A stretch of 64,000 nt of DNA, taken from positions 1 through 64,000 of the forward strand of contig JAPJBO010001027.1 of assembly GCA_030068145.1 (NCBI GenBank). The letters run 5' to 3'. Positions within the stretch are counted from its first letter, which is position 1; every line of letters starts with the position of its first letter. Both the position numbers and the translations under genes were made by a program. Positions 4,983 through 64,000 of the stretch are shown here, one piece after another. The notes below the pieces were generated by a model that was given only the letters and a program-made list of their open reading frames with translations, did no database searches and had not been told where the DNA came from. The DNA comes from Diplonema papillatum. Its lineage: Eukaryota; Euglenozoa; Diplonemea; Diplonemida; Diplonemidae.

Positions 4983-5045
4983 GTTAACCTTTCTGGTTTC
5001 CCGTTTTCCCCGTTTATCTTTACACCAGCCGCGCGAAGAAGAATT

Positions 5046-5525
5046 CCCCAGCCGCCCAGCCAGCTGCCCAGCCAGTCGCCCAGCCAGTCGCCCAGCCAGT
5101 CGCCCAGCCAGTCGCCCAGCCAGTCGCCCAGCCAGCTGCCCAGCCAGTCGCCCAGCCAGTCGCCCAGCCAGTCGCCCAGCCAGTCGCCCAGCCAGTCGCC
5201 CAGCCAGTCGCCCAGCCAGTCGCCCAGCCAGCCGCCCAGCCAGTCGCCCAGCCAGTCGCCCAGCCAGTCGCCCAGCCAGTCGCCCAGCCAGTCGCCCAGC
5301 CAGTCGCCCAGCCAGTCGCCCAGCCAGTCGCCCAGCCAGTCGCCCAGCCAGTCGCCCAGCCAGTCGCCCAGCCAGTCGCCCAGCCAGTCGCCCAGCCAGT
5401 CGCCCAGCCAGCGCCCAGCCAGTCGCCCAGCCAGTCGCCCAGCCAGTCGCCCAGCCAGTCGCCCAGCCAGCTGCCCAGCCAGTCGCCACAGCCAGTCGCC
5501 CAGCCAGCTGCTCAGCCAGCCGCCA
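5046..5525. repeat. 12-bp minisatellite (CCCAGCCAGTCG), about 40 copies
   Basis: A very homogeneous 12-bp tandem array with rare variants (AGCTGCCC, AGCCGCCC) and one unit shortened by 1 bp near 5410. Because the unit is a multiple of three and has no stop in most frames, it is open in several frames (for example AGRL or QSPS repeats). This is not evidence of a gene. Confidence 0.95.
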
Positions 5526-19734: not shown

Positions 19735-20577
19735 CGCACACCAACTAACCTCACTTTTGGTGAGGAATTCCAAAACCTGCTTCTGGACTTTTTTTTTTCT
19801 TGTGCCTCCAGTGTTCGCTTTAAGACCGGTGGCCCAGTCATTTTTCAAAACTGCCTCTGGGCAGTTTTTTATTTCGAAGCATCTCAGGCGTGTGGCTTTT
19901 TTTACTAGTGTTCGTCTTCCAGGGGTTTCAGTGCAGGCAGCCACGTACACAGTGGAGCTTACCTGCAGCCTGGATACGGCCGAGTCGCGAGCCCCCTCCC
20001 CAGTCGCTGAGTCAGCTTCGTCAGAATGGCGTAAGGAAAGAGTTCTAGGCATGACCCATCTGGGTTAACTGGACCAAGGTTCGTGCAAAATGCCGTCGAT
20101 AGCTATTCGGTTATCCTTCGGCTGGTTGAGGCATTTGTGCTCTATCTGTGGTGGCTGGGTTGCTTCTGACTGCAGGATCCTTCCCCGAACAAAAAGATTT
20201 GCTCCAGTCGTTAGCTATCATTATATGATAGCTGCTGGCTTTCCTTCTGGACATCGCGACATTTCTGGACAATTTCACCCGCCAGCCCGCGAGATCACGT
20301 GGAACAAGGCACTTGCGTCGACTCGGAGAGAATCTGCCAAGAAATCCGGGGCTGCTTCTGATCCTCGACTCTCTTTCTTGGCTCCAGCCTCCGTGGCAGC
20401 CCCAGACTTCTGCCCGCCAGCCCACGAGTCTACAGACTGTGATGCAGTGCTTTGGCCACACGATACCACCAACGGGAAAAAGGTGAGGAATTCCTCATGA
20501 GGAATTCCTCACCCTCTTTTTTCGAGCCTCTTTTTTTTTGAGGAATTCCTCGCACTTTTTCGTTAGCGGGAGCACTG
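19735..20577 (+). mobile_element. hAT-type element 1 relative, left end decayed
   Basis: 20289-20577 is almost identical to the right part of element 1, including the terminal inverse of CAGTGCTCCCGCTAAC. About 19741-19810 matches its left interior (CTAACCTCACTTTTGGTGAGG). The left TIR has diverged and no 8-bp duplication is found. The central 400 bp differs from element 1. Confidence 0.75.
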
Positions 20578-20932: not shown

Positions 20933-22191
20933 GGATGGAAACGCCGTTTCTTTTAGTTTTTTCGAAATATGGAAACGGAAACGGAAACGGAAACGGAAAC
21001 GGAAACGTTTCCGTTTCTTTTAAAAGAAACGCCGGAAGGCTCCTCATGCTGAGGGGTCCTATAGGATACCACTTCGCGGGTCCTTCTGTGTGTCCGTCGG
21101 GTGTCCGTTTCCAGCCAAATTTTGGCTTTCCTTTCAGAGGGCGGGATCACCTTCTTCTTTTGATCTACCAGCGGGCACTTCTCTTCCTCCGTCTTCTGGC
21201 GGGCTCTCTGACTCTTCAGGGCCCTTCCTGGGCTGTTCTTCGACTTGGCTCGGCCCCTTCTTGTGTGTCGTCGCGGTCTCGTTTGTGCAGAGCAGTCGCC
21301 GGTGCTCACCGCTTTCACAAACAAAACTACGCATTTCTTTCGTCGGCGATCTGGCACGAGCAAATTGGTAACCACAAGCTAGTGATGCAGAATGTCGTCT
21401 CGTGTGGATGTCTTCTGACACCAGATTCCACTCTGTGCCTACCACTTCGTCTTCTGCTGCTTCCAACCCATGAGTGGGGCTTTTTGAATCTGCCGTCCTC
21501 TTCTGCATTGTTGGTGGTTCTTCCTGCCGTCGTTGTCTATGCTCCGACAACACCGCCCGATGGCGCCCCTTCCGGTGACGGTTGCTACCCGTCGTCGTAT
21601 GCAAGGTGCACTGTGGCAAGTGATGTTTAACGCACACGTTGCTGCGTGGCCATCGCTTTTCTGGCGGGTTCAACATTGCCCCGGCATACGTGTGCCCTTC
21701 TCACCTCCTGATGCTGATTGCACTCCCTCTTTGTCTTACGCCGCCGAAAAACCCCGGTCTTGTAGCCTGTGGCGCTGAACGATCGTATCTGTAGAGTCTA
21801 TTATTGGAAGCGGATGTGCTTTCCCGATCGTCTTCAGCGCGTTGGCCAACGGCCTCGCATAACAGAGCATCGTCGCCACAGCCATTGGTGTAAAGAGCTG
21901 CAGATCTCAAAGTCATCACAACCGGATGCGTGTGGTTGCGTCTGCTCCACGCGGTCGCAACTCTTATGCTTCTTTCCTCCCTCCTTTTCGGAGCCTCCTT
22001 GTCCATGGTTTCCCACTGGATTGCGGGGTCCGCCGTTCGGAACACATTTCCGGTCGGACCTTCAGCCAGTATACTAGTGGCATACCAGCCGTTTCTTTTG
22101 AAAAGAAACGGCGTTTCCATCCACCGCCAAAGAGAAGGAAACGGAAACGGAAACGGAAACGGAAACGGAAACGTTTCCAACGTTTCCATCC
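20933..22191. mobile_element. Candidate element with inverted GGAAAC-array ends (about 1.26 kb)
   Basis: The left end GGATGGAAACGCCGTTTCTTT is followed by a GGAAAC hexamer array (20971-21012). The right end has the same array (22137-22175) and closes with the inverse CGTTTCCATCC. Each array collapses into a palindrome (GGAAACGTTTCC), and a GTTTCTTTTRAAAAGAAAC hairpin lies beside each. No target duplication was found, so its status as one element is inferred. The interior has scattered open frames but no recognised protein. Confidence 0.6.
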
Positions 22192-23337: not shown

Positions 23338-26300
23338 GTAGTATTTGAAGAACACTGAGTTGAGATGACCACTACACTACATTAGAGGGCCACACATGTT
23401 ACGACCATTAGTTAGAGTGCGTGGTGTGTAACTCCATTCTTCTACTGTACTCAGAGACAAGATGTTGTGGTACCGGGGGTTGAAGAGAACGAAGTTATAC
23501 AATCACACAGGCTTCAGTTGAAGACGGGCGCCGAACCTTTCTTCCCCGCGAATAGCCTCGTGCACAACATACCGAAGCAGCAACCAGGTACGATCTTGTG
23601 CTGTAAGTTCCCAGGCTCTACACATGGGCGCCCAATCACAGACGTCAGGACCCCCTGTGCAGTACGTACTGATAGGAAGACGAGCTGCGACTGCGTGCGA
23701 CTAGGTTGGACTAGAGGTACCTAATTTTGCGGTGTAATTTTGCGGTAAAAACGGCGCTTTCCCTGTTGAAAAATCCTTAACATTCACTTCAGTCAAAATA
23801 AGATAAGACCAGCGACACCAACGCAGCAACAAGGTGTAGATATCTAGGTAGACTACTCCTCATGGTTTCGGGGGTGTGCCATGCACTGCATCTTCTGTTC
23901 GTTCCAAAAGCGACACGACACACCACACCTCCTTTATCACAGGCTTTCTGAGCACCCACAGTCCGTAGACCTACGTATTTAGCAAGGACGCATAGCGCTT
24001 GGAGGACGCTGACTTTGCTTTGCGAAAGCCAGCCTCGCGGCTTGTGACCACGCGCGGGCGGAGGGACACGCATGTACTAGTTTCCAACGTAGTGATCAAT
24101 GCTCGCCGTCCCGACCGTTCGTTTGATACCGGCAAACCCAGACCTCGGTCCGACTGGTCCGATCGCTTATTCATCTCATCTGGACATGTTTGTTTTCACC
24201 ACCAGGCACGTCAATGGTGCACGCCTACCTCTAAGCTACTAGTTTCGCCCTTCAAAGCGGCGTATCCAATCATGCTCTGACGCCGAGCTCGATAGAGCTG
24301 TATTTCTTTGAAGCAGCGAGCGGCTAGCTAGGATCCATCTGTTCGACCTCTGAATCGAGTCGGTGGTACAGAGAGGACGAAATGCTGCACAACATTCTCT
24401 TTCCACTTGGTTGCTTTTGCACGGTCTCATGGTATCGGCAGGGGGAATGCTCGCTGACGAACTGAGATCTTTTAATACCTAGACCCGCAGCTCGATCCTA
24501 CGAATATTGTCGCACAGAGTCGAGATAGCTTATTCTGACCTGCAGACCGGTTTTTTTTGCTCGAGACAACTACTACAAAGCGTCTTCCCTGACGGGAAAG
24601 ACCCCGTGTCGTCTGGATCTCAGCAACATTGTCATTTCTTTCGGGTGTGGTCAAAGGCCGCAGGCCTGCCAATGCCCCCGCGAATGCAACACGAGCCCCT
24701 GCATGAACATGCCCATTGGAGTGACCTAGCCTCGTCGGTGGTGACTTCGTTGTTGTATCTGTTACCACTGTTCCGCTGGAGGTTTCAGGGGCGGGACCCC
24801 TGAGTACTTTTTGAGTGAAGGCGTCACGCAAACCAACGAACAGACAGCGCTTGTCACAGCCGCGGCTGCACTCTGTCAAAGGATGATACGTAACACGGAG
24901 AAAAGGGTCGAACCTATGCGCCCGCAGGGTCGTCGGAAAAACGAAACGCAAGAAGCGGGGAAAGAGGAGCGGGTGCTGCTGCCGTTCTTACCTCCCCGAT
25001 GGCACCCCGACTCCACACTGCCCCCTTTCCCATCTATCCCAAATAGCAGAGCAACCCCGTTTTAGGGACAAGGCAAGACTTGGCACAGACCATCGAGTTC
25101 GTTGTTGTGGCGGCACACGGGTCGTGCGCCTTTCTTATTGTCCACCGCGGCGAAAGCCACCTGCGACCCCGAAGGAATGCCCGGGGTCGACGAATCGCTG
25201 GCGAACAAAAGGAACTGAGGAAAAGAAAGTAGCACCCGATGCTAGAAGCTGAAAACGCCTTCCTGCCCTGCACCGCTGGATGGGGCTGAGGGAAAAAGAA
25301 CATACAAAGTGAAGTTGTACTAAGTGCTTTCCACCCATCTTAACCCACTCGGTAGGGTGCCCTGCTGGCCGGCGCCTCCTCCTTCCAACGTTTTTATTGA
25401 GGCCGACGTTTTGGGGCAAGATGCCGACCGGAGCTTCCAAACCCTTTTCGCTACGCGACGGAAATGAAAGAAACCATCCCTGCTCCCTTCAGCGAACGAA
25501 GGACGGCAGCCCGGGCTCTTAGCTGGCAGAACAAACAAGGTATCCGCCGCGCGAACAAGCAAGGCGCTCCTTTTGGTATCCAGTCTGAACGTCCGACGCA
25601 GAGTCGTCTCCGCACTACTCGCAGTGTGACTTCTGTCGACTAGCAAGAACAGAGAAGCCCGGAGGCGTGGGAAAACAAGATAGTCGGCGGAGCCATGCCT
25701 CCTGTCTGCGCATGGCCTGCCGTTCAAATACAAGTACCGACCAAGCGATAGATCACATCTCCAAAGAAGGTTCAATCTAATCCAAAAACATGGGAGATTC
25801 GACCTGTCAGAACGAAACCCTTTCATCTGCGATAACTTCGTTACTATTGCCTCCCATGCAATTTAAGGCTCGCACAGATTGGCTCGGAAAAGTCACAAAG
25901 TGAACCAGCGAGGGAAACGAATTACAAACCTATCTCCAAAAGAAAGCCACGAGAAAAAAGGACGCCCTTTTTGTTGTGGTTGTCATACAAAAGAAAATAA
26001 ATTGCCTGGCTGGGTAAAAGCCGCACCCCAAAACGGGCCTGGGTGTTCGCAGGTTTACCCCTTTCCAGCAATCAGCGGAGGTTTTTGTACTGAGCAGTCC
26101 CCCTCATCCTCGGTGTTCTCGGGTTTGTTACGTGTTCCAAGTTTACCCGGTCCGTCATCAACCCGTCTTCAATGTTTTGCTCGTTCTGGCACGTTCCGCA
26201 TCCGGTGGATTTCATAGCGAGTGAGCCGACAAGAAAACCATGCATGGCGAGAAGGAGACCAAGCACGGGGGAGGGGTTTCACCGGCACACACGTTTGCGC

Positions 26301-35209: not shown

Positions 35210-36500
35210 CTTAGAGCCTCCGCCTGCTCAGCCCCATATGGTAAATGCACGACTGTGAGCTTTTTTTATCAAATTTTATCAAGCTTATTTCTTGATTTTT
35301 CTCGTCTTGCTCTCCGCTTGTTGTGGAAGCTGCAATATTGAAGATTCCATCCTTGGATGGCGTGATTACCGTGGGCCTGGACCCTATCTGGACCCTAGCG
35401 CTAACCCGGGGCCCGGGGCCCGGGGCCCGGGCCCTGGAGGCCCTGGATTTACAGGTACCCTTGACTCCCTCCCCCCCAAAACCCCCCCCCCCCCCCCCGA
35501 GGGTATTCCAGTCTTAAAAAAACACATGTGGCCCATGATCACAAGTCATTCCGCATTTTTCAAGAGAACATTCTCCATTTTTCCTAACCGTCCTGCTATA
35601 CGGAAACAAGTGCACCTTTCTTCCGATAGTTAGACAAAATGCCCTGCCGCGAGGTCAAACGCAGAGCAATATCGCCTCTCTGCTGTTACCTGGTTATCGT
35701 GGAGTCTTGACTCCGTAGCTCATCCGTCTCCAACGACAAACGAACTTCGGCTCGGACGGTCTTCGTTGGGTTAGTGAAGCTGTCTCAGCGATGGACTTTG
35801 AGAGAAAAAAAAAAAAAAAACGATGGACCGGAGCAAGCCTGAGCCACCCTTCCTTTTTCGGCCGGCATCTCTCTTTTCTTCGTCCAATAGGTAACTTTGT
35901 ACACGCTGTCGGTGCAGCGTCGACCCGCTGCAGAAATTAACAGTTCCGACGCGCACGCGCGGTGGGTCCGTTTCCTTATTATTAGTTTGGATTGAAGTGT
36001 TGCGGTTCGGCATTGCGTGAACTTTTTTTTTTTTTTTTTTTTTTTGTTTTTTTTTTAATTTTGAAGCAAGCACCAGCAGCAACAAACGAGAACGGAAGAC
36101 AAGAATCCCCGAAAAGAAAAAAAGCACCCTGGTGTGGTCGGTGGGCCAGTTCCCCGTAGTTCCCCCGTAGTTCAACCAGGGGGGGGGGTGTCGTTTTTTT
36201 TTTTTGCTTTTTCAGTTTTTGCTGAGTACTTCAGGGCTGTGATTCTTGATCTTGGCGAGCACTTCCTAGCGACTTTGCACCTTTCTGTCACACAATGTGG
36301 ACAATTCTGATGATATTTGGCCCACGAAGGTCGGAAAGCCAAGAGGATGAAGAAGAAGACACTGCGTAAAAACAAAATAAAACGACCAAAAAACAAGACG
36401 GCACACGTCCTCCGGAAATTGGAAAGCGAAATTTGTGGGATCTCGACGGTCAAACGGTTCCAACATCTTGATGAAATAACCCAGTCTGCAAACCTGTGAC
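35210..36500. other. Gene-free interval with GC palindromes and homopolymer runs
   Basis: 35398-35465 holds tandem GGGGCCC palindromes and TACAGGTACC, the inverse of 33215-33275. A C-run is at 35481-35499, a T-run at 36023-36045. A segment GGCCAGTTCCCCGTAGTTCC (36144-36171) recurs at 40733-40760. No gene is recognised. Confidence 0.5.
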
Positions 36501-36509
36501 GTTTCTGCG

Positions 36510-38816
36510 CTACATCTCCTCGCTGCTTTCACTATCCTCGCTATTAGCTGTCTCGAAGCGCACCTTTTTCAGGGGGGGCTCGTCTTCTTGGGGTTGCTTC
36601 TTTCGCTGCCGGGAGGGAGACCTCGGACGCGGCAAAGCCTCGGGTTCTTCGGTTTTTGCATCCTTCTGTTCCAGGTCATGGAGCAACTTGCCAGCAACAA
36701 CATTAGCCCGGAATCGCATGCTTCGGGCAAGGGCGTGCTGTTTTAGCTCGTCAAGAAGCAACTTCTCATCAGCTTCCTGACATGCAGACACAAGCTTGTC
36801 TTTGCTCCAGTTTTGGCAGGACTTGATACCTCGCCGTTCAGCTTGCTGCACAAGCGCATCCTTTCGCCAATGACTGTCTGCATCGAATCGCCAAGGAATC
36901 CTTTTGATGAAGTCATTGCGTTCTGCCTGCCACTTTTTCCTGTCGTCATGAGAAACTTGCTTCGCCTTGTAGTGGGTCAACTTCAGCAAACCGCATCGGT
37001 CTTTCCTCGCCTGGATAGTTTCTATCCTTTGCGCAGCATATTGCTGAATTGTCTTTGGGTAGGGCTGGTGAATGCTCAGGTGAGCGTTGGTGCTCGATAG
37101 CTTTGCCCTGATGCATTCATCGCGGATGCGCGTGTTTGTCTGCTGTTGCAGGTGACGTTTCATGGATCCAACGGTGCCCTCTATGAGACTCGGTCCTAGC
37201 TTTACGGGTCTTGGGGTATCCGCTGTTGCCTTGCTGTACATGGTCAGCTCTGCAACAATGCCGCAGGCAAACCTGTGGGCAACAGAAGACAGGAAAGCTG
37301 AATCTGTTGCCTCGTCTATGGGTTTAATGGTTGGCATCTGCACGCCGGGACCTCCGTAATAGCTCGCAATAGAGCCAGCCGCGTCTAAGTGGGCTTTCAT
37401 ACGCCGAATGAACTGCTGAACGGAGTTCCGCTGGCACACAAACTTTACTTCCGGGGCCTTCGTAGGAAATGTCACACCTCGTCTCGCTTTTTCCATCCAC
37501 AGCGGATTCCCGAAAATGTCCTTTCCAGTTCGAATTTTTGTGAAATAGAGACCCAGGGTAGCCATCAAATCGCTGGCAAAGCCGGCAGTAAAGTCGTCGT
37601 CGAGTACTTCTTCCCCAGCGTACTGCCAGATTCGCCTCAACGCCGGATATGCAATGATCTCAAATGCTAAACCTATTCGACGGAAGCGCTCCTGGGTACC
37701 ACGAGGAGTCAGGTACATGACGATATTCTTCTTTTTTTTCGAATACTCTGTCGTTTCATCAAAGCTGCCGAGGAAGTCCAAGTACCATCCCAATAGGGTC
37801 TTCTGACCAACGGTGCATGATAGAGACCACGCGGCTGCCCAGGACGTTCCGAATCTCCCTGTCGTCGCCCTCTGCCACAACACACCTTTCAACTCCGGGC
37901 CGCCCTGTTCCCGCAGCCATACAGCAAATGCAGGTGAAGATGCCACGTCGTTCGCTGCTGCACACAGGAACGTCATCTCCTTCCCAATCTTGAGCTCGGT
38001 CACAACCCTGCTCATCGTCCGATGCAACCTGTGCACTGGTTCGTATACCCGGGGTTGTTTGAGGCCCCCCACACCTGCTCCGCGGTCCGTAAACATACAG
38101 CAGAAGCGGTCTTGCTCGAAAAAGGCATCAGGGCCGAGAACGCCAAGCCCTCGAAGTTCTTGCGTGAGAGACGAGAAGTAGCAACAGATTTCTGTCACTG
38201 CGTCTTCCACCATGCTGCCATCGTGCACGGTTGAAAGGCACGCCTTCAGGAAATGGTGCCTTTGTGATGTTCCTTGCATCCAAGTTGCTGTCAAGTGGAT
38301 TGCATGCCAATTCTCGTTAACAGGTGTGCTATCGTGCTGCAAGGCGACATCCTTGTCTTCGATGGCACACAAAAACGAGATATCACGCGCAACCAGGTTG
38401 CTCTGCCATGCTCGCTCAACCCTGAAACGACTCACTTTTACTCGCTGGATAATGAGGAGTACCCGGGGTATGCGTCGGATCTTGACATCTTCCGCCATCA
38501 GGCTGTCTACGATACCTCGCAGTTCTCCGTCGGCCAGGCCTCCGCCGTCCGTCACCACAGCGCGATTCTTGTCGAGGACTGGTACAAGCACGCAATGGCC
38601 GCAACTGAGCTTCCACAAGTCCTCTCTGAGAACAACAGGACAGTCGGCCAGACAAACTGTTGAAGGGGGGCCGGTAGCGAGGCGCACATATGTCCCAGCA
38701 AGCGCGTAGCCAACCGACTTCGCAAGTCCTACGATAGCGTTCCAGTCAGCATTCTCGACGAGAAAACCTTCATGGCGCATTCCACACGGCTTCACGAAAG
38801 TAACGTCAATCTTCAT
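36510..38816 (-). CDS. Unrecognised 768-aa protein with SAP-like C-terminal region and NLS
   Basis: A long uninterrupted minus-strand frame. The first ATG in frame is at 38816-38814 (MKIDVTFVKPCGM). The frame is open about 100 bases further upstream without an ATG and contains TTTGTTGCAG before GAAAAGG, which looks like a 3' splice site, so an upstream exon is possible. No named domain is visible in the first 640 residues. A segment TTGRFGTSWAAAWSL vaguely recalls the T/R-R-F-G/S motif of hAT transposases, but no DDE set can be assigned. Residues about 652-681 (KDALVQQAERRGIKSCQNWS) look like a SAP-type DNA-binding helix pair. The tail has RSPSRQRKKQ and LKKVRFE (nuclear localisation) and ends in acidic Ser/Glu. 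It may be a transposase-derived or chromatin protein. Confidence 0.65.
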   Translation of the reverse strand: MKIDVTFVKPCGMRHEGFLVENADWNAIVGLAKSVGYALAGTYVRLATGPPSTVCLADCPVVLREDLWKLSCGHCVLVPVLDKNRAVVTDGGGLADGELRGIVDSLMAEDVKIRRIPRVLLIIQRVKVSRFRVERAWQSNLVARDISFLCAIEDKDVALQHDSTPVNENWHAIHLTATWMQGTSQRHHFLKACLSTVHDGSMVEDAVTEICCYFSSLTQELRGLGVLGPDAFFEQDRFCCMFTDRGAGVGGLKQPRVYEPVHRLHRTMSRVVTELKIGKEMTFLCAAANDVASSPAFAVWLREQGGPELKGVLWQRATTGRFGTSWAAAWSLSCTVGQKTLLGWYLDFLGSFDETTEYSKKKKNIVMYLTPRGTQERFRRIGLAFEIIAYPALRRIWQYAGEEVLDDDFTAGFASDLMATLGLYFTKIRTGKDIFGNPLWMEKARRGVTFPTKAPEVKFVCQRNSVQQFIRRMKAHLDAAGSIASYYGGPGVQMPTIKPIDEATDSAFLSSVAHRFACGIVAELTMYSKATADTPRPVKLGPSLIEGTVGSMKRHLQQQTNTRIRDECIRAKLSSTNAHLSIHQPYPKTIQQYAAQRIETIQARKDRCGLLKLTHYKAKQVSHDDRKKWQAERNDFIKRIPWRFDADSHWRKDALVQQAERRGIKSCQNWSKDKLVSACQEADEKLLLDELKQHALARSMRFRANVVAGKLLHDLEQKDAKTEEPEALPRPRSPSRQRKKQPQEDEPPLKKVRFETANSEDSESSEEM

Positions 38817-39082
38817 CTCCCCGTTGTTCCAGGCTTTCCTGACTCGCTCTCGTTCCTTTTCCTGCAACAAACCCCTGCATTGGTTTTGAACACACCGACA
38901 TTACAAACGTTAATTTCTCTTCGTCAGCTAGTCGAATACCCGAGTTGCCGCCGGATAGACAGGCCGTCGCTTCCAATGGACATCCAGAACAAAAGAGAAT
39001 TGAGACAACAAAAAACTATAATTGATCGTCGGGAACACACAAAAAAAGAAATGCCTTTACGATGGAGGCTATCACCAGAAAG

Positions 39083-40036
39083 CTAGATTTTTGCCTCTTT
39101 GCGTGGGTTCTCGACCTCTGCTTCCTCGTCTGCCTTTCGTTTGAAGCCAACCATTTCAAACATCTTTTTGGCGTTGGCCTTTTCTTGTTCGGACATGCCC
39201 CTTGTGAGATCCTTCCTGGCCGCCACCTTCTTCTTATTTTTAGCAGCTTCTTTTTCTCTGAAAGCTTTTAGGTCTGCTTTCGCGTTCTTTGACAGCTTCT
39301 TGGCGAACTTCGGGCATCGACAACCGTGTCGTACAAACGACGTCCCGTCAGAAAGCCTGTCCGGCGGGTTGCTGACCTTTGTGCCACAAATACAAAGCAC
39401 CCAAGAGGGTCCGAACTTCAGCCCCACCTTGCCGAACCTGTCACACAGCGCCTCCTCCAACTTGTTCGTAATCATCGAGCTACTGTCCGCCCGCGATGTG
39501 TATGAGTTGTCGTGCACTTCCGCGTCGTGTGTTAGCAGGTGCTTTCGGACGTGCTTTGCCGAGTGCTTTTTCAGCTCCAAACGGACCACTATATGGAGGT
39601 TCAACTTCTTTTCGACGACCTTTTGTAGTCCCGCGTCGTTGAGCACTTCCGTCTCGTCGTCGCGCTCCTTATAAAACCAGCGACGTGCGACACCGGTAGC
39701 CCCCCTAAGGAAAGGAGCGTCTTTCTTTTCTGCAAGCTGGTTTCCGCATTCCAGCAGGTGCGGCCGTATTGTGGACTCGTGGAACGTTTGCAGCGAGCCG
39801 TTAGTCATAAAGTCGGCGTTGTACTTCATGTCTTCTTCCTTCAGGTCGATGGTGTCGCTTTCTTCGGTCTCGCTGTTGTCGTTCTCCTCACGCTCTTCCG
39901 TCGTGCGGACTTGGAGATATTTCGTAAAGCAGTGAAACGTAACGCCGATACAGAATTGCATTTTACGCTTTTGAATTTTGTTTCGTGCCTTTATTTGGGT
40001 ACTTTCTTTTGTAGCCAGTTCAATGGAAACGATCAT
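39083..40036 (-). CDS. Unrecognised 317-aa basic protein with CxC...CxC motif
   Basis: ATG 40036-40034, stop at 39083. It has an acidic patch (residues 47-70), then a mixed-charge central region rich in His/Lys (KKHSAKHVRKHLLTHD). A paired CxC motif follows (C215/C217 and C239/C241, in VLCICGTK and HGCRCPKF), likely one metal site. The Lys/Ala/Glu-rich helical tail carries KNKKKVAARK. The composition suggests a nuclear nucleic-acid-binding protein. It lies immediately upstream of and co-directional with the 768-aa gene (266 bp to its ATG), so the two may form one element or share a transcript. No relatives are recognised. Confidence 0.6.
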   Translation of the reverse strand: MIVSIELATKESTQIKARNKIQKRKMQFCIGVTFHCFTKYLQVRTTEEREENDNSETEESDTIDLKEEDMKYNADFMTNGSLQTFHESTIRPHLLECGNQLAEKKDAPFLRGATGVARRWFYKERDDETEVLNDAGLQKVVEKKLNLHIVVRLELKKHSAKHVRKHLLTHDAEVHDNSYTSRADSSSMITNKLEEALCDRFGKVGLKFGPSWVLCICGTKVSNPPDRLSDGTSFVRHGCRCPKFAKKLSKNAKADLKAFREKEAAKNKKKVAARKDLTRGMSEQEKANAKKMFEMVGFKRKADEEAEVENPRKEAKI

Positions 40037-40172
40037 TTTACGAGAGAGATGATTTGCGCTTTATTTAGAGTTCGAGCTCGCTTGAGATTCCGGATGCAAA
40101 AGTCACCTGTAAGGCGATTGCATCGTATTGGGGTCACATTTCGTTTAGGCTACAGCAGCAGATGTTAGAACA

Positions 40173-40223
40173 CAGAGAAGCATTTCATAAAGCTGTCTAG
40201 CTTTATTATGCAATGCTTCTCTG
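40173..40223. repeat. 51-bp hairpin
   Basis: CAGAGAAGCATTTCATAAAG pairs with the inverse ending AATGCTTCTCTG, with a short loop and a central bulge. It abuts the element at 40224. It is too short to be sure it is more than part of that element's surroundings. Confidence 0.6.
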
Positions 40224-40581
40224 TTAAATTTAGGGTCAACGACAAAACGGATTCTATATAACTGGATTACGACAAAGTGGATTATTAGTGGATTATAATC
40301 CAGTAATAATCCACTTTGTCGCTTTTGATAATCCACTTTGTCGCTTCTGACAACCGGCATGAATTATATAGGGGGACCCTTTCACAAAAAGTTCCCACAG
40401 GGAAAGTGACTATTTTGAGCTGTTTGAGTTCATTGAAACCATCAAAAGTGAGCTTAGGTCCGTCATACGGGGCGACAAAGTGGATTAGGCGACAAAGTGG
40501 ATTGGCGACAAAGTGGATTATAATCCACTTTGTCGTAATCCAGTTATATAGAATCCACTTTGTCGTTTTCCCTAAATTTAA
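40224..40581. mobile_element. MITE with TTAA-bounded ends and GACAAAGTGGATTA palindromic arrays (358 bp)
   Basis: The ends TTAAATTTAGGG and the inverse CCCTAAATTTAA bracket matching arms that continue with TCTATATAACTGGATTACGA. Each arm contains several GACAAAGTGGATTA units in both orientations, so each arm also folds locally. The terminal TTAA could be a target duplication of piggyBac or Kolobok type, or simply the first bases of the repeat. The interior (40350-40470) is non-coding. Confidence 0.8.
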
Positions 40582-41016
40582 ACGCGCCGGTTTGAAGACC
40601 CCTGGCGCCCCTGTCCACCAACACCCCCAAAAAGCCCCAAACCCTTTAACTAACTCCAAAGCCCCCGCAGTCTGAGGGAAACATGAGACCTATGCCCCTC
40701 AAGAACCACCAAAAAAAAAAAGGACACCCCAAGGCCAGTTCCCCGTAGTTCCCCCGTAGTACCCCATGGTTATACCGATCACACCACACCCGCCGTTTTT
40801 TTTTCTTTTACTCGAACTGAAGTACCAAGCAAACAAAGATCGCAAGACACCAAACTGATTGTCTCTCAGGATCGACGGCAACCCAAAACGCACGCCCATA
40901 CGGGATCGTCGGAAACACCAGAAAGCCCAGAAGAACGGAACGGAAACATTGTCGCCCCATCGGGCCGTTGCAGTTGCGCCTTGACATCCTGTCTGCATGC
41001 GAGTGAATACAATTGG
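40582..41016. other. Gene-free interval with two dispersed motifs
   Basis: GGCCAGTTCCCCGTAGTTCC (40733-40760) is shared with 36144-36171, each beside a homopurine run. The segment around 40892-40920 (CGCCCATACGGGATCGTCGG) recurs near 41720 and 44545. Confidence 0.55.
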
Positions 41017-43125
41017 CATAGATGGCCGTTATATAACGTTATATAACGTTATATAACGTTATTCCCGGAGTTATTTGTTACCCCCCCCCTTAATCCAGAA
41101 AAACCGTTATTGACCGTTATAAAACCGTTATTTGCCATTTTTGGTCGAAAAATAACGTTATTTGACCGTTATAACGTTATATAACGTTATATAACGTTAT
41201 AATAACGGTATAATAACGTTATATAACGTTATAATAACGTTATATAACGTTATATAACGGTTTTTTACCAATCCATGGGAGGTCACACTGTCCTCCAGAT
41301 TTTGGTCATTTTTGGCCATTTTTGCCACATTTTCCAGATTTTGGCCAATTTTGGTTATTTTTGCCAATTTTTCCAGATTTTGGTCAATGTTGACCAGTTT
41401 TGCCGTGTTTTCCAGATTTTGGCCCATTTTGGCCGTTTTTACCGATTTGGCCAGGATTGGCCATTTTTGCCATGTTTTTCAAAAATTTGGCTATTTTTGC
41501 CGATTTTTCCAGGTTTTGGTCATTTTTGGCCAGTTTTGCCATGTTTTCCAGACTTTGCCCATTTTGGCCGTTTTTGCCGATTTTTCCAGGGTTTTGGTCA
41601 TTTATGCCCTGCCCCTCACCAGAGCTATTCTTGTCTGAGTTTCTTAAACCCGCACAAGCTCGAACAGGCAGTCCGTGCGCGGAAAAAAAAAAAGGTCGAA
41701 AGACACCAATCTGTACACCCATTCGGGATCGTCGGAAACACAAAAACACGTGTACCGCCCCACCCGCTTCGATTTCAGCCACACTAGTCTTTCCAAAGGG
41801 AATATCGACTATGCCTGCGAAAAGCTCCCCGAAGGTCCAGCCGAAGCCGAAGGTTCAACCTAAAGCTCAGCCGAAAGCTCAGCCGAAGACCCCAGGTACA
41901 CAGCGCAAACGGCCTCGCGCCGAAAGTACGGATAGCAACAGCAGCAGCAGCAGCGCCTCGGTTGCAAAGGCGCGACGCGGAAGGAAGAAGGTGGCGGAAA
42001 CGCTGCGCGTCGAGGCCTTGTCCCGCGACCTGGCATTGACTGGCCCCAGCGTTCTCCCTGTCACGAAACCACCAAGTAAGAGCCCGGAACAACGATTCAT
42101 CGACCGGATCAAGAAAACCGACCCCGGGCTGGCTGGGTTCTACGGGAAGCGCCAGCTGTGACTGCTCGACTTTGCATGTCTCGTGCTCATCATGCACCCA
42201 TATTTGGTACTGGGACCTTGTCTGACTGGCATAGTACGCAACGGTCTGCCGAGTGGACAAGCTTGGACAAGTTGGACTCCAGTGGCCGGATCATGCTGGT
42301 GACATCTGCTGCCTCACGAAGGACACTGCAAACGACCGTTACGGGCCACCGACTGAGGGACACGCGCCGGAAACCCAAAACTGCAGACATCCACATCCCA
42401 AGAACAACATCGCACAGTGAAAGAGTCATGTGAATCCGGAAGGATCGCGTTTGTCGCGCTTGGGTGGAAGTCCGCAAGAAAATAAGTAAAAGAGAAAAAG
42501 CTCTGGGGAGGGGCTATACGGACCCCTGAGGACCGGTTACTACGAATTCTTTTCGGACCAGGGTTTGTTTCCGAACAGTTTTTGTGACCGGGATCCAAAA
42601 ATCGGCAAAAGTCTGGAAAAATTGGCAAAAATGGCCGAAATTGACCAAAATCTGGAAAATCGGGAAATCTGGAAAAATCGGAAAAAATGGCCGAAATTGA
42701 CTGATCTGGATAAATCGGCCAGAGTGGCCAAAATCTCAAAATTGTCCAAAATCTTGAAAAATCGGCAAAAATGGCCGAAATCTGGAAAAATCGGCAAAGA
42801 TTGCCGAAATCTGGAAAAAATCGGCAAAATGGCCAAAACCTGAAAAAATCGGCAAAAGTCTGGAAAAATTGGCTAAGATTGACCAAAATCTGGCAAAAAT
42901 GGCCAAAATCGGAAAAAATGGCCGAAATGGACCAAAATGAGGAAAAAATGACAAAAATCTGGAAACATGGCCAAAATCGGAAAAATTCTAAAAACCGTTA
43001 TTTGCGTTATTTTTTCCGTTATTTTGCGTTTTCGACCGTTATATAACGTTATATAACGTTATATAACGTTATCACCGTTATAACGTTATATAACGTTATA
43101 TAACGTTATCAACCGGCCATCTATG
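41017..43125. mobile_element. Foldback-type transposon with palindromic-array ends and a cargo gene (2109 bp, TSD AATTGG)
   Basis: The terminal repeats CATAGATGGCCG and the inverse CGGCCATCTATG are flanked by AATTGG (41011-41016 and 43126-43131). Inward of each end is an array of the self-complementary unit AACGTTATAT (41029-41270 and 43000-43118). Further in is a long degenerate tandem repeat of about 30 bp (core TTTGGCCATTTTTGCC) at 41285-41610, whose exact inverse type is at 42590-42980. The unique centre holds one small gene. No transposase is recognised, so it is probably mobilised in trans. Confidence 0.82.
41811..42161 (+). CDS. Small Lys/Pro-rich histone-H1-like protein carried by the foldback transposon
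   Basis: ATG 41811 to a stop at 42159-42161, 116 residues. The N-terminal 26 residues are four PKxQPK-type repeats (SPKVQPKPKVQPKAQPKAQP). Then come TQRKRPRAES, a Ser run, a basic ARRGRKK motif and a less biased C-terminal half (LRVEALSRDLALTGPS, then QRFIDRIKKTDPGLAGFYGK). This resembles H1 tails or other DNA-compacting proteins but has no globular winged-helix signature. It sits at the unique centre of the inverted-repeat element. A conserved CCATWCGGGATCGTC motif lies about 90 bp upstream, in a position compatible with a promoter or 5' untranslated region. It may be cargo or an element-encoded DNA-binding protein. Confidence 0.5.
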   Translation: MPAKSSPKVQPKPKVQPKAQPKAQPKTPGTQRKRPRAESTDSNSSSSSASVAKARRGRKKVAETLRVEALSRDLALTGPSVLPVTKPPSKSPEQRFIDRIKKTDPGLAGFYGKRQL

Positions 43126-45799
43126 AATTGGGGTCTTTTCGAAAACCCCTGGGGTCTGCTGCGAGCGGTGCACGTAAAGACGCATTTTGAGTGCATGCGC
43201 CTCAGGTCCGCCACGACGACCCGGTCTGTACACAGTACACGACCCTTGCTAGCACGTAAGTGCATGCTAATCCATGTGGTTCATGTACTCATTGGCACTT
43301 GTCCACGTGGCTGCAGGCGGACACGAGGATATGCAAGGCTTCCTTCGGGCACAGGGAGATCTACACTAGCTTCCAGCGAGTGTTTCCTTACACGCGGCAC
43401 CTCGGGTCATGACCCTGCCCTCGTGGCTCGATTGTTCATAAGCCGACGCCGAGGGGCCAGGGACAGCCAGCGCATTGTTCACGTTTGCTTCACGTGCACA
43501 CCTTTGACATGGATTTTGCAAACGCAAACGAAACGTTCAAGCGTACTACGTTGTTGGCCACATACTGATCTAGACGGCCATTCCCACCGGTTTGCGGGTT
43601 CTTCTTCTCCGATGGACGCAACGTTTCCGTCCCGTAGTTCTTTGGGTGGGAGTCGCATCGCGAGCCTAGGGTGTCGGGGACGAGGCAGTTTCTACACATG
43701 TTGGACCTCACGAACCAGTTCTACGTTCGGTAAGTCTGTTCACGTGCCGGTTTCGGGGGCATCAATCGAAGGGCACGTTTGAAAGACTCGACTGCAGACA
43801 ACACACGGGATCGTAACTGCACGCCTGCTGGGGGGGCTTTTGAATCAGCAAAAAACGAATTGTCAATCACCAACGCGGAGAGATAAAGAACCTTTTATAC
43901 GAGAACACTACCCTTTTGGCGCCCGTGTTCATGTCGGGAAGGCATGTCCTAACTTCGAGCCTGCAGTCGAAGTCGATGGTTTCTTCTCGCCTGAGTTGAT
44001 TCGTGTCCAGCTTTATGACTGCCTTTCCGGGCTGCTCGCATGGCAACGGTAAACGGTCTTGACTTAATTTGTGACCGCCTTGTACCGGCCCCCTGGGTAG
44101 AGCCTGGTTCCGGGAATCGAAAAACGGTCGGTTGTCAAAAACTGACCGAGATCTGCCTGTTTGACTACGACCGCCCACTGCGCTCTACGCGGCTCAACGC
44201 TACCGCTGCAGCATTGAACCCGGAACTGCTTCCAAGAGTACACTGTTTCTCAGCCCCTTGAGTTCTTCCAATACTCCTTCTGCGCGGTCGAGGCTAATGG
44301 GCTTCTCGATGTTGAACGTCTCGTCCGTCAAGCTGTGTGTGTTGCGCAGTGGGTTACATGGCCTTCATTCGGGCGGGTTCGCGTTTTGGACAGTTGACTT
44401 TGCAAGGGGGGACGTGGCTGAGTATAGGCACACAGTGGATTCCAGCTTCCCTGGTGGTAGCTCAAGAATTGGCCGACACCAGAAAACATGCATCAGAAAG
44501 CAAAACGTCCTCACACGCACAAAGTTCGAAAGGCACCAATCCGTACGCCCATACGGGATCGTCCGAAACATAAACTATGGGGACCCGGAGTTTCAGGCTA
44601 GCTTTCGCTCCAAAAAGAAAAAGAACCATCAGCAGATTCAAGAAGTACGAACATCCCAAGAGAAAGTGAACCGAGAAAAAAACTCAGATTGCGAAGAAGG
44701 AAGAAGAAAGGGACGGGGGGCAGCCTCCGGAAAGGAAAAGCACTGCGCCCGATTGCTGCCCAAGCTTATCCACGCACTTGCCACCCCTCCAATGGAACCG
44801 TTTCCCCCGAATTCCCGCCTTTTCCTTTTCCGGAAGTGATGGGGGTAGGGTTGTTCGCGGCGAGGCACATTCCCTCAATTGCGCACCCGATGTGAAACAT
44901 CATCTCCCGTGCACCCCGTCTGCCAAATACTCCGTTTTAACATTTTTTTGTCTCCTTCGGGGTTTGGATTTTTTCCATTGCCAAATTTTGGAACCCTCTG
45001 CTACAATATGAAACTAGGACATCCTCGTAGCGACGCGGGGGAACCCCTGGTGGTCCGTTGCGGTGTCGGCGTGCAATTCGCTTCACAAAACTGGGGTTTG
45101 GGGCGAAAGACCCGTTGCACCGTCCAGTAGCTGTTTCACTCGAGCGCCACCGAAGAGCTGGCGGGGAGGTTTGCTTTTTTGGTGGCTAGTATGGTACTCA
45201 TTTGCATGCACTCAAAGGACACTGTTTCGTGAAGTTCAGAGCTATGCCATTCGTAGCCTAAAGTTTAGACATTACAGGGTGGCGAAACAGATGCATGGCG
45301 ATGGGGGCAAAAGCTATCTGCGACATCCTTCGGGAAGTGCCGTGGGCACTCAACAGAGCTTTGGGGGTTCTCCTTCCAAGATTGCGCGTCATGCGGCCCT
45401 ACTCAATGGAGTATTTCAACACGCAATTTGCTCGGATCACGAGCTGAGCTGCCGATAATTTCTTCTGAGAGCTGAACCCGCCAAGTCAGCGCTGGATGAT
45501 TCATAGCTGTCCTGCGCTAGATCGAATGCGAAACCTCAGCGAGTTCCAGCCAACGCAGGCAAGAGCAATTTTTGTGTGTTGATCCTGTTGGAATTGCATT
45601 CTGCCGTTGTACAGAGTCTGAACGTCGCTTCATTCAGGGTGCAAGAAATACCAGATAGCACGCAACACCCCTACTGGCGTACACATCGGTCGGTGACCCC
45701 GGCTGCAGACTCGCCTCTGTGCTGGGCATCTGCGCTCCGCGAACTGCACCGCACTCTGCCGGTTGCGTGACGTTGACGCTGAGCTTCACGAATACATGA
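43126..45799. other. About 2.7 kb with no recognisable gene
   Basis: Short open frames only. A copy of the CGCCCATACGGGATCGTCCG motif lies at 44525-44572, followed by the ACCCGGAGTTTCAGG motif at about 44582. Confidence 0.35.
44525..44572 (+). repeat. Dispersed motif GRCACCAATCYGTACRCCCA, third copy
   Basis: It is nearly identical over about 45 bp to 41695-41742 and, in its second half, to 40890-40918, continuing WCGGGATCGTCSGAAACA in all three. Two of the three are near the foldback element or inside it. Confidence 0.7.
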
Positions 45800-59368: not shown

Positions 59369-59865
59369 ATGTCGTACATGTCCGACATAGTTTCAAAAGT
59401 TGTCCTATATGTCCGACATAGTTTCAAAAGTTGTCCTATATGTCCGACATAGTTTCGGAAGTTGTCTTATATGTCCGACATAGTTTCAAAGTTGTCTTAT
59501 ATGTCTGACAAAGTTTCAAAGTTGTCTTATATGTCCGACATAGTTTTGGATGTCCGACAAAGTTTCAAAAGTTGTCTTATATGTCCGACATAGTTTTGCG
59601 ACTACATGTCCGACATAGTTTCATTAGTTGCCTTATATGTCCGACATAGTTTCAAAAGCTGTCGTATATGTCCGACACAGTTTCAAAAGTTGTCAAAGGT
59701 GTCCGACATTATTTCAAAGTTGTCTTACATGTCTGACAAAGTTTCAGAAGTTGTCTTACATGTCCGACATAGTTTCTGAGCATGTCCGACATAGTTTTAT
59801 TAGTTGTCTTATATGTCCGAAATCGTTTCAGAAGTTGTCTTTCACGTCCACAGCATAGTTCTCGG
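59369..59865 (+). repeat. MULE left array, about 17 units, diverged
   Basis: Units of mostly 29-31 bp (TGTCCGACATAGTTTCAAAA then GTTGTCYTATA), with several shortened units and point variants. There are no non-repeat spacers. The outer edge has ATGTCGTACATGTCCGACAT, itself partly palindromic. Confidence 0.92.
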
Positions 59866-60414
59866 ATTTCTACTTCAACCGGGGTCTGCATGTTCCCCTT
59901 TCCCACCCTTCTATTTTCCCTCGGGTGTTTATTGTGGTGTTAAAAAGCAATATCTGTGGACCAAAATAGCAAGAACCTGACCCTAAGGAAAAGGCCAGAA
60001 CGTTGTTTGATGTTCCCAGGGTTGGAAGGTGTTCTCTTGTATTCCTGATTAGGGATACTGTACGCGGGTGTAGCACCTTGTCCGCCTCTATTTCATTTGC
60101 AGCCGCCTTGCTCCTCCCGACGCAGTTGACTGGAGGGTTTCGTGACCAGTACCCGACACCGCCATGATTCGAGCTGTTCGAGAAGAACGGGGAGGAAACG
60201 TGGTCTGCATCGTAAAGAAGAAATGACGGTTCCCGATTGAAGGTTCTTCAGGACAACAATGAGGTTGAAGAATGGGGGTGATTACCAGGCCTTTTCGCGC
60301 AGGCTCTGGGGGTGACGCCTCACTTGACTGGTGTCTCTAAACGAGGGGTCACGGACCGTGGAAAAATGAGGACACGTCACCAAAAAACAGTAAAAATGAT
60401 GAGGGGTGGAAATC

Positions 60415-60475
60415 GCTTTTCGGCATCGGCATCCGAGCATTAGGGGACGGGCATCGGCATCCGAGCATTAGGAGG
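60415..60475 (+). repeat. Two-copy direct repeat in the MULE 3' region
   Basis: GGCATCGGCATCCGAGCATT plus AGGRGRCGGG occurs twice in tandem. It sits between the transposase stop and the left array. The rest of 59866-60559 shows no gene. Confidence 0.8.
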
Positions 60476-60559
60476 CGGGGAATAACTGATCCAGCTTTAC
60501 TAGACACTGGGTGATTTCTGGCTGAGGGGGCCAATGTTGTTTCGGTTCCGCATCTACGA

Positions 60560-63319
60560 CTACATGGCCAACTGTACGACAGAGCGATGATTCTGCTTGA
60601 TGCCCTGCAGCAGGCGAGTGGGTCTCGTCGTCATCAACCAGTACTGCCCCTGGTCATTAAGGAGAGGGATGGAGGTGACCGTGCTTCCTGGTGGCACTGT
60701 GTTCGTCAGCTTCCACTGAACGTTCCTTGTACCAATCTCGCATGTGAAGACGGCGAGTTGAACCTTGAACGCGCACGCCATGAGCAGCAGGGTCATGGCA
60801 TCCGGGGGTGTGCCAACCCTATTCTGAACTCGTTTCCACCCACTGTAGGCATCGCTTCCGCCCATCTGCCTTTCAAATCTTTGCACAATATCCGCACTCA
60901 GGGGCTGCGCGAATAGATTCTTCTGCAAGAGGGCATGGGGGTTAGCCTTCTCTCGGAACTGAAAGAAATACCAAAAGTTAGCTGCTGTTAAGCAGCTGTA
61001 GAAGGACCCGTTCTTAGGTGTGGTCGGTGAAAGTTTCACCCCTGACTTTACTATGGCTTCGCGCAGCTGACGGGAACAAGTTTCACCCACCACAACCTGT
61101 CCCACTGGCTGCACCAGAGCTTCTTCCCCGTGCGTGTCTTCTCTTTCTGGTATGGGAGGGTTTGCAGGTGGGTTTGTGCACCTCCGTTTGTTGTGCCCGG
61201 TCTTCAGACAGCGCGAACAAAGTGAGCGTCTCTTGGCGAGAGGTAGCTGGGCTTCTTCGTCTGCACCCGGCAGGCGCTTCTTCTTCCGTCCTCTTCGCTT
61301 GAATACAGGGGGTGGTTGGAGCTCGTCATCTTCGAGATCCAGTTCTGGAAGAGGCAGAACTCCGTTCGCGTACAGCTGGTTGTATGCCTCGACCTTGAAA
61401 CACCCAGGAACATACTGCTCGGGATCCTTTTCTGCCTTGCGCATTGCCGCAATGGCGTGGACACAGGGAAGCCCGGTGACCCGTTCTGTGCGCATGCATG
61501 TGCACGAGAAACTTTCATCTGTCAGTACGACAGCATGCCGCGTGCCGTGCCTCTTCGTCTCCGCGACTTCAAACTTCGTCCGCGTGGATACCGTCACGAC
61601 CCACTGGTCCCACTCATGCTGCACACGCGCCAGTTTCAGCGCAACCTTCGGTGTAGGCTCTGTGTTGCTGTGCATGTGCAAGGCGCCCCTCCTTTCTGAG
61701 AACGTCCCCATGGTACGGGAACGAAGCACCTCAAACACCGAAAGGATGTCGCGGGCCTGTCTTGCCGCTCGCACAACATTGTTGTGCGATTCCGACCTGT
61801 TGGTCGTGTACTCCTCGTACCGGCACGTTCCGGTGTACGCGTCGGAGAGGACGTCCTTCAGAGGAGCCAGGTAGTCGGCCACGACGGGACGCTTCTCCCG
61901 GAGTTCTTTAAGGACTTTCCGGTATGCCCTGGCGGTTGGTGCCTCCGCTAGTTTCGCAACGTAGTGCGCGTGTTTCCTTCCGAACTGCGTCTTCACGTTG
62001 CGCTTCACGTGTTCCGAGCAAGCCAGGTGCTTGCAGTTCGGAAACACGGCCGGAAGGGCGGCCGCCAGACCTTTGTCGCGGTCGGATATCACCGTAAACT
62101 CGCGAGCAGACGCGTCCTTTAGACACTCCAAGAAGCGTGTCCAGTTGGCGGTGTCTTCCGTTGTGCCCAGACCGTACGCGACGGGGACAGTGAGACCGTT
62201 GGCATCGGTCCCCACAGCGATGAACATAGTCTCGCCCCCTGCTGTGTGGCACGCGTCAGTCGAAAGAATCGGTCTGATCCACTCGGTTGCTTTCCTCATG
62301 GCGCCGAGGGCCATAAAAGCGAAAGAAAAAACCTCCGTACCGTTCTCCTCTGTGGTGTGATGCACACTGCAGTGCGCATCCGGGTCCGATTGGACGATGG
62401 CCTCGAAATACGACCTGAGCTTCGCATAAGAGGATTTACCATTCAGCATGTACAGGCTGGAGGCGGCTAGGAGAGCGTTGTACGCTACCGTTTTTGTAAT
62501 GGCCAGAGAGAAATCTCTCTGAACGCGGCTCTTCACGTTGGCGGCGGTCAGGGCGGGGACATCCCACAACCACGTACAGATGAGCCGTCCTAGCCACTTT
62601 GCCACCCCTCTGCCCTGCAACTTTGTAGGCTCGTTTCGAAGGGAGCACGTGTGCTCGTGCACCTTTGACACACACAACAAGCCAGCAGCCCGTACCGACA
62701 CCCGCGCCTTGCAGGTAAACTTACATGCGTCATTTGTACTGGTTTTGTTTGTGCAGGAGAATTCGATTCTATCTGTCCACCGCTTCCTGGAAATGCAGAG
62801 GTGGCCATCCTTCAAACAGGATAGCCGGACGGTGTCGCAAAACACCTCTTCCGACACGAATCGCTTGCCTATCATGGGCATCGTGTTCTCAGCAAGGACG
62901 ACTTCTTCATCTTTTTCGTTGTCGCCGGCATCTGCAAGCGCGGCATCTTCGTCGTCGCATTCGTCGCCTTCTTCGTCGTCGTCTTCTTCGTTGTCTTCTT
63001 CGTTGTCTTCTTCGTCGTCTGCTTCGTCGTCTTCTTCGTCGTCTTCTTCGTCGTCTTCTTCGTCGTCTTTTTCGTCGTTTTCTTCGTCGTCGTTGTCTGC
63101 AGACACGCGGTCGTCGTCACTGTCTCCGGGCCCGCGGTCGTCGAGGGGGTTTGCCCGAGTCAGGCTGCAGAGTGTCCGCACAAGACGTTCTGGCCTGTGC
63201 TTCATTGCGACAACCAGTTCATTCACCTCCTCTTTGTGCTGGGCGGTGTAGGCCATAACCCTGGCGGCGTCTTCCTCGTTCTCAAATGGAAGCTCGTCCA
63301 CTGTAACGAGTAGATCCAT
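60560..63319 (-). CDS. MULE transposase with SWIM finger, zinc knuckle and degenerate OTU-like domain
   Basis: 919 residues from ATG 63319-63317. The frame is open upstream, but that part is repeat-derived (KVEFDCF / KVEFEYR), so the internal ATG is preferred. Order: Asp/Glu-rich tract (about 66-140), MuDR-type Cys/His DNA-binding region (about 160-225, ending HEHTC), and an RNase-H-fold DDE core with D355 (ILSTDACH), D413 (VISDRDKG), the HLACSEH motif (431-437) and E510 (NRSESHNN). Then a SWIM finger (C606, C608, C619, H621), basic KRRGRKKKR and a C-x2-C-x4-H-x4-C knuckle (701-714). Residues about 745-895 look OTU-like, but the expected D-G-x-C is replaced by NGSFYSC and the terminal His by GQYWL, so protease activity is doubtful. 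The enzyme would cut and join at the array ends. The catalytic core looks intact. Confidence 0.92.
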   Translation of the reverse strand: MDLLVTVDELPFENEEDAARVMAYTAQHKEEVNELVVAMKHRPERLVRTLCSLTRANPLDDRGPGDSDDDRVSADNDDEENDEKDDEEDDEEDDEEDDEADDEEDNEEDNEEDDDEEGDECDDEDAALADAGDNEKDEEVVLAENTMPMIGKRFVSEEVFCDTVRLSCLKDGHLCISRKRWTDRIEFSCTNKTSTNDACKFTCKARVSVRAAGLLCVSKVHEHTCSLRNEPTKLQGRGVAKWLGRLICTWLWDVPALTAANVKSRVQRDFSLAITKTVAYNALLAASSLYMLNGKSSYAKLRSYFEAIVQSDPDAHCSVHHTTEENGTEVFSFAFMALGAMRKATEWIRPILSTDACHTAGGETMFIAVGTDANGLTVPVAYGLGTTEDTANWTRFLECLKDASAREFTVISDRDKGLAAALPAVFPNCKHLACSEHVKRNVKTQFGRKHAHYVAKLAEAPTARAYRKVLKELREKRPVVADYLAPLKDVLSDAYTGTCRYEEYTTNRSESHNNVVRAARQARDILSVFEVLRSRTMGTFSERRGALHMHSNTEPTPKVALKLARVQHEWDQWVVTVSTRTKFEVAETKRHGTRHAVVLTDESFSCTCMRTERVTGLPCVHAIAAMRKAEKDPEQYVPGCFKVEAYNQLYANGVLPLPELDLEDDELQPPPVFKRRGRKKKRLPGADEEAQLPLAKRRSLCSRCLKTGHNKRRCTNPPANPPIPEREDTHGEEALVQPVGQVVVGETCSRQLREAIVKSGVKLSPTTPKNGSFYSCLTAANFWYFFQFREKANPHALLQKNLFAQPLSADIVQRFERQMGGSDAYSGWKRVQNRVGTPPDAMTLLLMACAFKVQLAVFTCEIGTRNVQWKLTNTVPPGSTVTSIPLLNDQGQYWLMTTRPTRLLQGIKQNHRSVVQLAM

Positions 63320-63477
63320 TTTGCACTGCAGAACAGATACAGAGGCCACCCCTGCCTGTGACCAGTGACAAGGTACCCAGGTCGGCCGTGGGGGGTGTTT
63401 GGGGTTTTGTTTGGTAGGCTGCATGGCTATTTTGCCGTCCCACATGTCAACGTAAAAACTCATCCTCGATCGATACT

Positions 63478-63560
63478 CGAACTCAACTTTTGTGTACATA
63501 ATTTGGTTCAAAAAGCAGTCGAACTCAACTTTTGTGGTAATGTGGTTCAAAGAGCAGGTT
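63478..63560 (+). repeat. Two-copy direct repeat upstream of the MULE transposase
   Basis: CGAACTCAACTTTTGTG followed by TTGGTTCAAA or TGGTTCAAAG, twice in about 80 bp. It explains the repeated peptide at the start of the extended frame and argues that translation starts downstream. Confidence 0.75.
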
Positions 63561-63618
63561 CAGAAGGTGCGTGGTTCAGGGGTGTGTAAGCAAAGTGATA
63601 GGATAGCTGGAGAAGTCT

Positions 63619-63873
63619 TCAGAAGGTGGTGAGGGTCATGACTGTGTTCGTTTGATCTGCCAGAAGGACAGATGGTGAGTAACCTAAAAGTATATACGAC
63701 AACTTCTGAGACGTTCTGGCCTGTCGACACGAATTGCATTCCACAGACAGGAGGTCGACTTCTTCGTCTTCGTCTCTGTCGTCGTCGTCGGAAGTCTTCG
63801 TCGGCGCCTCTTGTGGCAACTCTCGCGGGTTAGCCCATGAAGGTATACCAAAGCTATCGGACATATAAGACAA
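63619..63873 (-). other. Short upstream open frame in the MULE leader, possible first exon
   Basis: 84 codons on the minus strand, starting in the array (MSYMSDSFG) and containing an acidic run (KTSDDDDRDEDEEVDLL) and CNSCRQAR. The acidic character resembles the transposase N-terminus, so it might be a spliced leader exon. The only evidence is composition. Confidence 0.3.
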
Positions 63874-64000
63874 CTCTTCAAACTATGTCGGACATGTAAG
63901 ACAACTCTCCAAACTATGTCGGACATGTAAGACAACTCTCCAAACTATGTCGGACATGTAAGACAACTCTCCAAACTATGTCGGACATGTAAGACAACAT
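63856..64000 (-). repeat. MULE right array, at least 4 homogeneous 31-bp units, continues past the window
   Basis: Exact 31-bp period (ATGTCGGACATGTAAGACAA, then CTCTCCAAACT), nearly invariant, in contrast to the diverged left array. Decayed fragments occur inward to about 63697. Confidence 0.93.

Follow-up and report, generated by a model that had tools for sequence, protein, structure and literature searches.

The element at positions 41017–43125 of the window, a 64,000-nt stretch of the Diplonema papillatum genome, is almost certainly a non-autonomous, internally deleted (Ds-like) derivative of a ≈5.2-kb hAT transposon that makes 6-bp target-site duplications (TSDs). Its ends are common to the derivative and an autonomous-looking element in the same genome, and an internal deletion is present between them. 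It is an ordinary, recently active derivative, and its odd appearance is due to its long and regular subterminal arrays, which the parent also has.

The 2109-bp unit is bounded by two AATTGG hexamers (41011–41016 and 43126–43131, unstranded), the 6-bp duplication that an earlier, sequence-only reading of this DNA had proposed for a mobile element. The 46-nt terminal arms, one at 41017–41062 on the plus strand, beginning CATAGATGGCCG, and the other at 43080–43125 on the minus strand, are 93% complementary, which bears out the short terminal inverted repeats (TIRs) of that reading. In a scan of the 64-kb window, CATAGATGGCCG was found with up to one mismatch only at the two ends of the element. 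The outer subterminal arrays (41027–41262 on the left and 42993–43115 on the right, unstranded) consist of ATAACGTTAT, palindromic as had been described, together with CCGTTAT units on the left, where the period is 10 bp, and CCGTTAT variants on the right. All 17 exact copies of ATAACGTTAT in the window fell within the element (11 left and 6 right), compared to a mean of 0.01 in shuffled sequences.

A second shell of inverted arrays had been described with a unit of about 30 bp. The inversion is real: allowing one mismatch, the TTTTGGCCA motif occurred 14 times on the plus strand at 41300–41600, within the left inner array (41294–41606, plus strand), and 13 times on the minus strand at 42623–42976, within the right inner array (42598–42988, minus strand). 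The unit had to be revised to a TTTTGGCCA-type motif phased at ≈10 bp, with higher-order periods near 20, 29 and 39 bp, of which the 39-bp period is strong on the left. The self-match at the best lag was 0.68 for the left array and 0.56 for the right, while the largest values among 500 shuffles of each were 0.42 and 0.39. The motif itself is not rare (49 matches with at most one mismatch across the window, with 28.5 expected and 45 in the largest shuffle); its significance lies in its clustering and strand polarity.

Between the arrays lies the unique core, all of it annotated on the plus strand. It comprises a leader (41637–41810) that the parent also has upstream of the transposase ATG, the expected 116-aa open reading frame (ORF; 41811–42161), rich in basic residues and proline (16 Lys and 11 Arg, i.e., 27 Lys+Arg, with 15 Pro and 14 Ser), and a 3′ unique core (42145–42597) whose homologue in the parent is 3′ non-coding sequence.

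The parent was found in the assembly to which the window belongs (271 Mb). Fourteen stretches were fetched around 13 parent-type protein matches, with two of the stretches overlapping on one locus. At four loci (L039, L040, L041 and L042) there was an intact 793-aa frame, and its N-terminal part corresponds to the “H1-like” ORF of the window. L040 is a complete element of 5203 bp with the same ends as the window element and a 6-bp duplication, TCATTT. L041 is also complete (5194 bp); one of its end bases differs and there is no exact duplication. At L039 and L042, the frame and the left end were present and the right ends were not found in the fetched stretches. Over ≈4.7 kb from the left end, the four loci differed from each other by 0–3 substitutions and 20–84 gap positions.

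When the window element was aligned to L040, its nucleotides 1–1128 matched 1–1154 of the parent and 1125–2109 matched 4270–5203. The window copy thus carries a single internal deletion, in which ≈3.1 kb of the parent is missing, at a 4-bp microhomology, TACG (42141–42144, plus strand), that fuses L040 positions 1151–1154 with 4270–4273. What had been read as a 116-aa gene consists of the beginning of the 793-aa frame, which encodes the N-terminal basic region of the transposase, and of the codons GKRQL and a stop, read from beyond the junction. Seven other internal deletions were present in the fetched set (L044, L045, L047 outer copy, L048, L049, L050 second copy and L051). Four of their junctions had an overlap of 2–4 bp, one had none, and two contained 11 and 23 nt that did not align to the parent. 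L047 contained one copy inserted within another, and both were flanked by separate 6-bp duplications.

The element is multicopy; a single-copy element is what had been named in advance as counting against the sequence-only reading. The genome contained 146 occurrences of the exact deletion junction and 14 of the undeleted site; there were 164 and 160 matches for two pieces of the 3′ unique core and 297 for the right-end 14-mer, with none for any of the reversed controls. The difference between 297 right ends and 160–164 cores means that ≈130 right-type ends belong to something that lacks the 3′ core, perhaps further non-autonomous relatives. In a DNA search, all 40 matches scored, out of 1571 candidates, were long copies with 95–100% identity. 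In a protein search, 150 of 235 candidates were scored and none had a stop inside the matched part; by hand count from the table, 137 were derivative-type and 13 parent-type. Among the former, 101 matches were 348 nt long, 28 were 336 nt, three were 345 nt and five had other lengths, and all extended to residue 116 except one that ended at residue 105. The parent-type matches covered residues 1–114 only, and four of them were in 832-codon frames.

Target duplications were counted in 36 distinct copies for which both ends were found, after removal of five loci present in duplicate, three cases in which the ends of nested or neighbouring copies had been cross-paired, and loci at which only one end was found with at most one mismatch. 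The duplication was exactly 6 bp in 31 of the 36, while one copy had an 8-bp match and four had none. These exceptions are a counterpoint to the proposed derivation, as is the fact that L040 is the only one of the four intact-frame loci that is complete with an exact TSD. The near-identity of the four intact-frame loci, and of 35 derivative cores, points to a family that has been active recently.

We considered the possibility that the 116-aa product is a functional regulator, for which a KP-like repressor offers a comparison: a truncated transposase would poison oligomers or compete for the arrays, and the derivative would spread while the parent was damped. The junction was identical in all 35 derivative cores (≈940 bp), and the ORF was open in every one (116 aa in 34 and 112 aa in one), as it was in the matched part of the 150 scored protein matches, although the core sample leans towards good ORFs, with L009–L038 being the 30 best of the ORF search and L001–L008 the eight best of the DNA search. 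Moreover, of the eight deletions seen, amplification is known for the window-type deletion alone, and the coding part has diverged less from the parent (6/330 differences) than the leader and 3′ core (31/587; Fisher p = 0.013). Set against this, the six coding differences comprise four non-synonymous and two synonymous changes (read by hand), a ratio that gives no impression of purifying selection; the coding alignment also has 21 in-frame gap positions. The distance of the terminal arrays from the parent is about that of the ORF, with 5/250 differences in the left outer array, 10/341 in the left inner array and one in the last 159 bp. Divergence from the parent is thus lower in the ORF than in the non-coding core, but not lower than in the terminal sequences. 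Neither the BED-like finger of the full protein nor its C-terminal dimerisation domain is present in the fragment.

The lower coding divergence could mean that there is some constraint, but this can largely date from the stage of the full transposase. Selection would not yet be visible in copies this young: with the exception of the divergent L013 (96% identical), the non-coding core was nearly as invariant across copies as the ORF, leaving a comparison of the two without power. The expectation that the ORF would be conserved across copies therefore held for its openness, which is explained by recent amplification, and not for purifying selection, which was not demonstrated. There is no clear sign of selection on the 116-aa ORF in these alignments, and we regard a regulatory role as unlikely.

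The 793-aa protein matched the Pfam hAT dimerisation family (Dimer_Tnp_hAT, PF05699) at E = 7.1e-10, with 39 bits against a cut-off of 21.4, and this was the only Pfam family above its cut-off. By itself, the protein matched the Hermes transposase at only E = 0.077. We built a profile from five related proteins of the genome, consisting of the 793-aa protein and four frames from three further lineages (L053 and L057, which are close to each other, L055, and L056). These lineages have long open frames that are 19–26% identical to the 793-aa protein. The profile matched four distinct Hermes chains at 1.1e-10 to 1.3e-10, with nothing else below 0.07. Among the further lineages, the Pfam hAT domain was above the cut-off in L056 and below it in L055 (0.0015), and the L053/L057 lineage matched no Pfam family at E ≤ 0.1. 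The related family represented by L053 and L054 (≈25% identical) has shared block ends, but no clear TIR or TSD was apparent by eye. Relatives were also sought in viral contigs, where none of seven pattern matches was confirmed.

A CxxC pair, D279, a CxxH motif (C367/H370), R408/W412 and D736-x2-F-S were invariant in the five sequences; D343 of the 793-aa protein was unaligned in one of them (L055). A candidate zinc finger, C146-x2-C149 … H167-x3-H171, was picked out by eye. The Hermes finger aligned to it at only 2.6 bits, and zf-BED was not among the Pfam matches at E ≤ 10. The significant family match comes from the C-terminal domain only; the finger and the RNase H-like core are putative, assigned on motifs and a weak alignment. 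The Hermes residue opposite D736 is E572 (the position was counted by hand in the alignments), which we take to be the catalytic glutamate. The putative third catalytic position is Asp in all five sequences, representing four hAT lineages, and Glu in Hermes. In a limited literature search, we recognised nothing on point for an Asp-type hAT active site, which may be published nonetheless.

A superfamily other than hAT with 6-bp TSDs, either IS3EU or Dada, the latter also a superfamily with duplications of this length, is very improbable here. The usual hAT target duplication is 8 bp, in contrast to the 6 bp found in 31 of the 36 copies. This does not exclude hAT, because groups with 5-, 6- and 7-bp TSDs (hAT5, hAT6 and hAT7) are recognised within it, as given in the available portion of PMC12730594, where Blackjack and other animal hATs share a lineage with hAT5 and hAT6. 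The combination of a hAT transposase and a 6-bp TSD that defines hAT6 (Kapitonov & Jurka 2007, cited in PMC12730594) is present in this family, a likeness by these traits and not by branch placement. The IS3EU families in the same portion of PMC12730594 likewise have 6-bp TSDs, and their TIRs of >30 bp are comparable to the 46-nt arms. However, those families end in TAYGG..CCRTA, while the window element ends in CATAG..CTATG, and both the sole Pfam match above the cut-off and the Hermes match of the clade profile argue against any superfamily other than hAT.

A foldback element with a captured host histone-like cargo gene, as the sequence-only reading had it, accounts for the long repeat-built arms inverted around a unique core, but it can practically be dismissed, since the transposase-bearing parent contains the ORF and both core flanks in colinear order, and what looked like a cargo gene is the start of a hAT transposase cut by an internal deletion. 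The 116-aa ORF matched no Pfam family at E ≤ 0.1, including any linker-histone domain, and its best matches in the PDB were photosystem chains at E = 0.72. The identity of the Foldback (FB) elements of Drosophila rests on long inverted termini of tandem repeats. Long repeat-built inverted termini are present in both, but the window element has a hAT parent and a transposase, and the likeness is of shape only.

For the internally deleted hAT derivative, the following course of events may be proposed. The transposase made by the parent would bind the arrays and terminal repeats, excise the element and insert it by cuts staggered by 6 bp. Internal deletions could arise when repair of the gap left by excision is interrupted, and one deletion that kept all terminal sequences may have been moved in trans by the parental transposase and then spread; the 6-bp TSDs found at many sites lead us to infer mobilisation in trans. 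By analogy with Hermes, whose BED domains bind subterminal repeats (available portion of PMC10368747), the arrays are probably repeats of this kind, bound by the transposase. The outer palindromic and inner phased arrays may recruit several transposase subunits through their BED-like fingers (C146, C149, H167 and H171 in the parent). The 116-aa product, if made, would comprise only the basic N-terminal part of the transposase, with neither finger nor catalytic domain, and would presumably be a by-product. A more elaborate proposal is that the family represents a DDD hAT clade, in which the third acid has changed from Glu to Asp and whose studied member has a 6-bp stagger, and that the 2.1-kb derivative owes its spread to an effect of the N-terminal fragment it retains on transposition of the parent, with the fragment reading the 10-bp-phased double arrays. 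We think it quite unlikely that this holds as a whole.

In the Ac/Ds system of maize, copies with internal deletions retain both ends and spread, with a complete element supplying the transposase. The same relationship is described for BuT2 and its deletion-derived MITEs in the available portion of PMC3942097. Both systems have an 8-bp TSD, in contrast to the 6 bp of the window family, and, compared to what is given there, the window derivative keeps an open N-terminal frame and, at ≈2.1 kb, is no miniature element. The likeness to Hermes (PDB 2bw3, 4d1q, 6dww and 8edg) extends to the C-terminal domain (≈1e-10), the CxxH motif, the BED-like finger (weak) and the presence of subterminal repeats. 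The 793-aa protein differs from Hermes in having Asp at the E572 position and a long Lys/Pro/Ser-rich N-terminal extension, and the arrays of the window family are more regular and denser.

Several other repeated features were observed in the window. At 60563–63550 on the minus strand there is a Mutator-like transposase frame (PF00872 at 1.7e-12; MULE at 7.1e-12), flanked by ≈31-bp tandem arrays at 59370–59841 and 63857–63998 whose consensus units are inverted by eye. The region 59370–63998 may be a second element of this design, with inverted ends made of arrays, and would belong to another superfamily. In the region 36400–40570, long minus-strand frames of 786 and 317 aa, with no Pfam family above its cut-off, lie beside inverted runs of CGACAAAGTGGATTA and TAATCCACTTTGTCG at 40240–40566, possibly representing another transposon. 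The string GGGATCGTCGGAAACAC had five matches with up to three mismatches (40902–40918, 41725–41741, 44555–44571, 39022–39038 and 24926–24942), with 0.23 expected; one is in the leader of the hAT ORF and one in the flank, and similar strings occur in the 3′ part of the parent. Identical short tandem arrays of TGAGGAATTCCTCA and GGAAAC are paired at 18261–18288 and 20484–20511, and at 20971–21007 and 22137–22173, perhaps through local duplication or as the ends of another element. Beyond the window, a search of the genome that was blind to introns detected no light-harvesting family, and the organism is perhaps not photosynthetic.

The layered element can thus be understood as one partner in an ordinary autonomous/non-autonomous pair, observed shortly after it amplified. 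With near-identical parents, 146 copies of one junction and seven deletions not known to have spread, the family provides a clean natural case for asking why one derivative wins. Should the Asp at the third catalytic position of the four hAT lineages be confirmed in other genomes, it would be a variation of the hAT active site open to direct testing.
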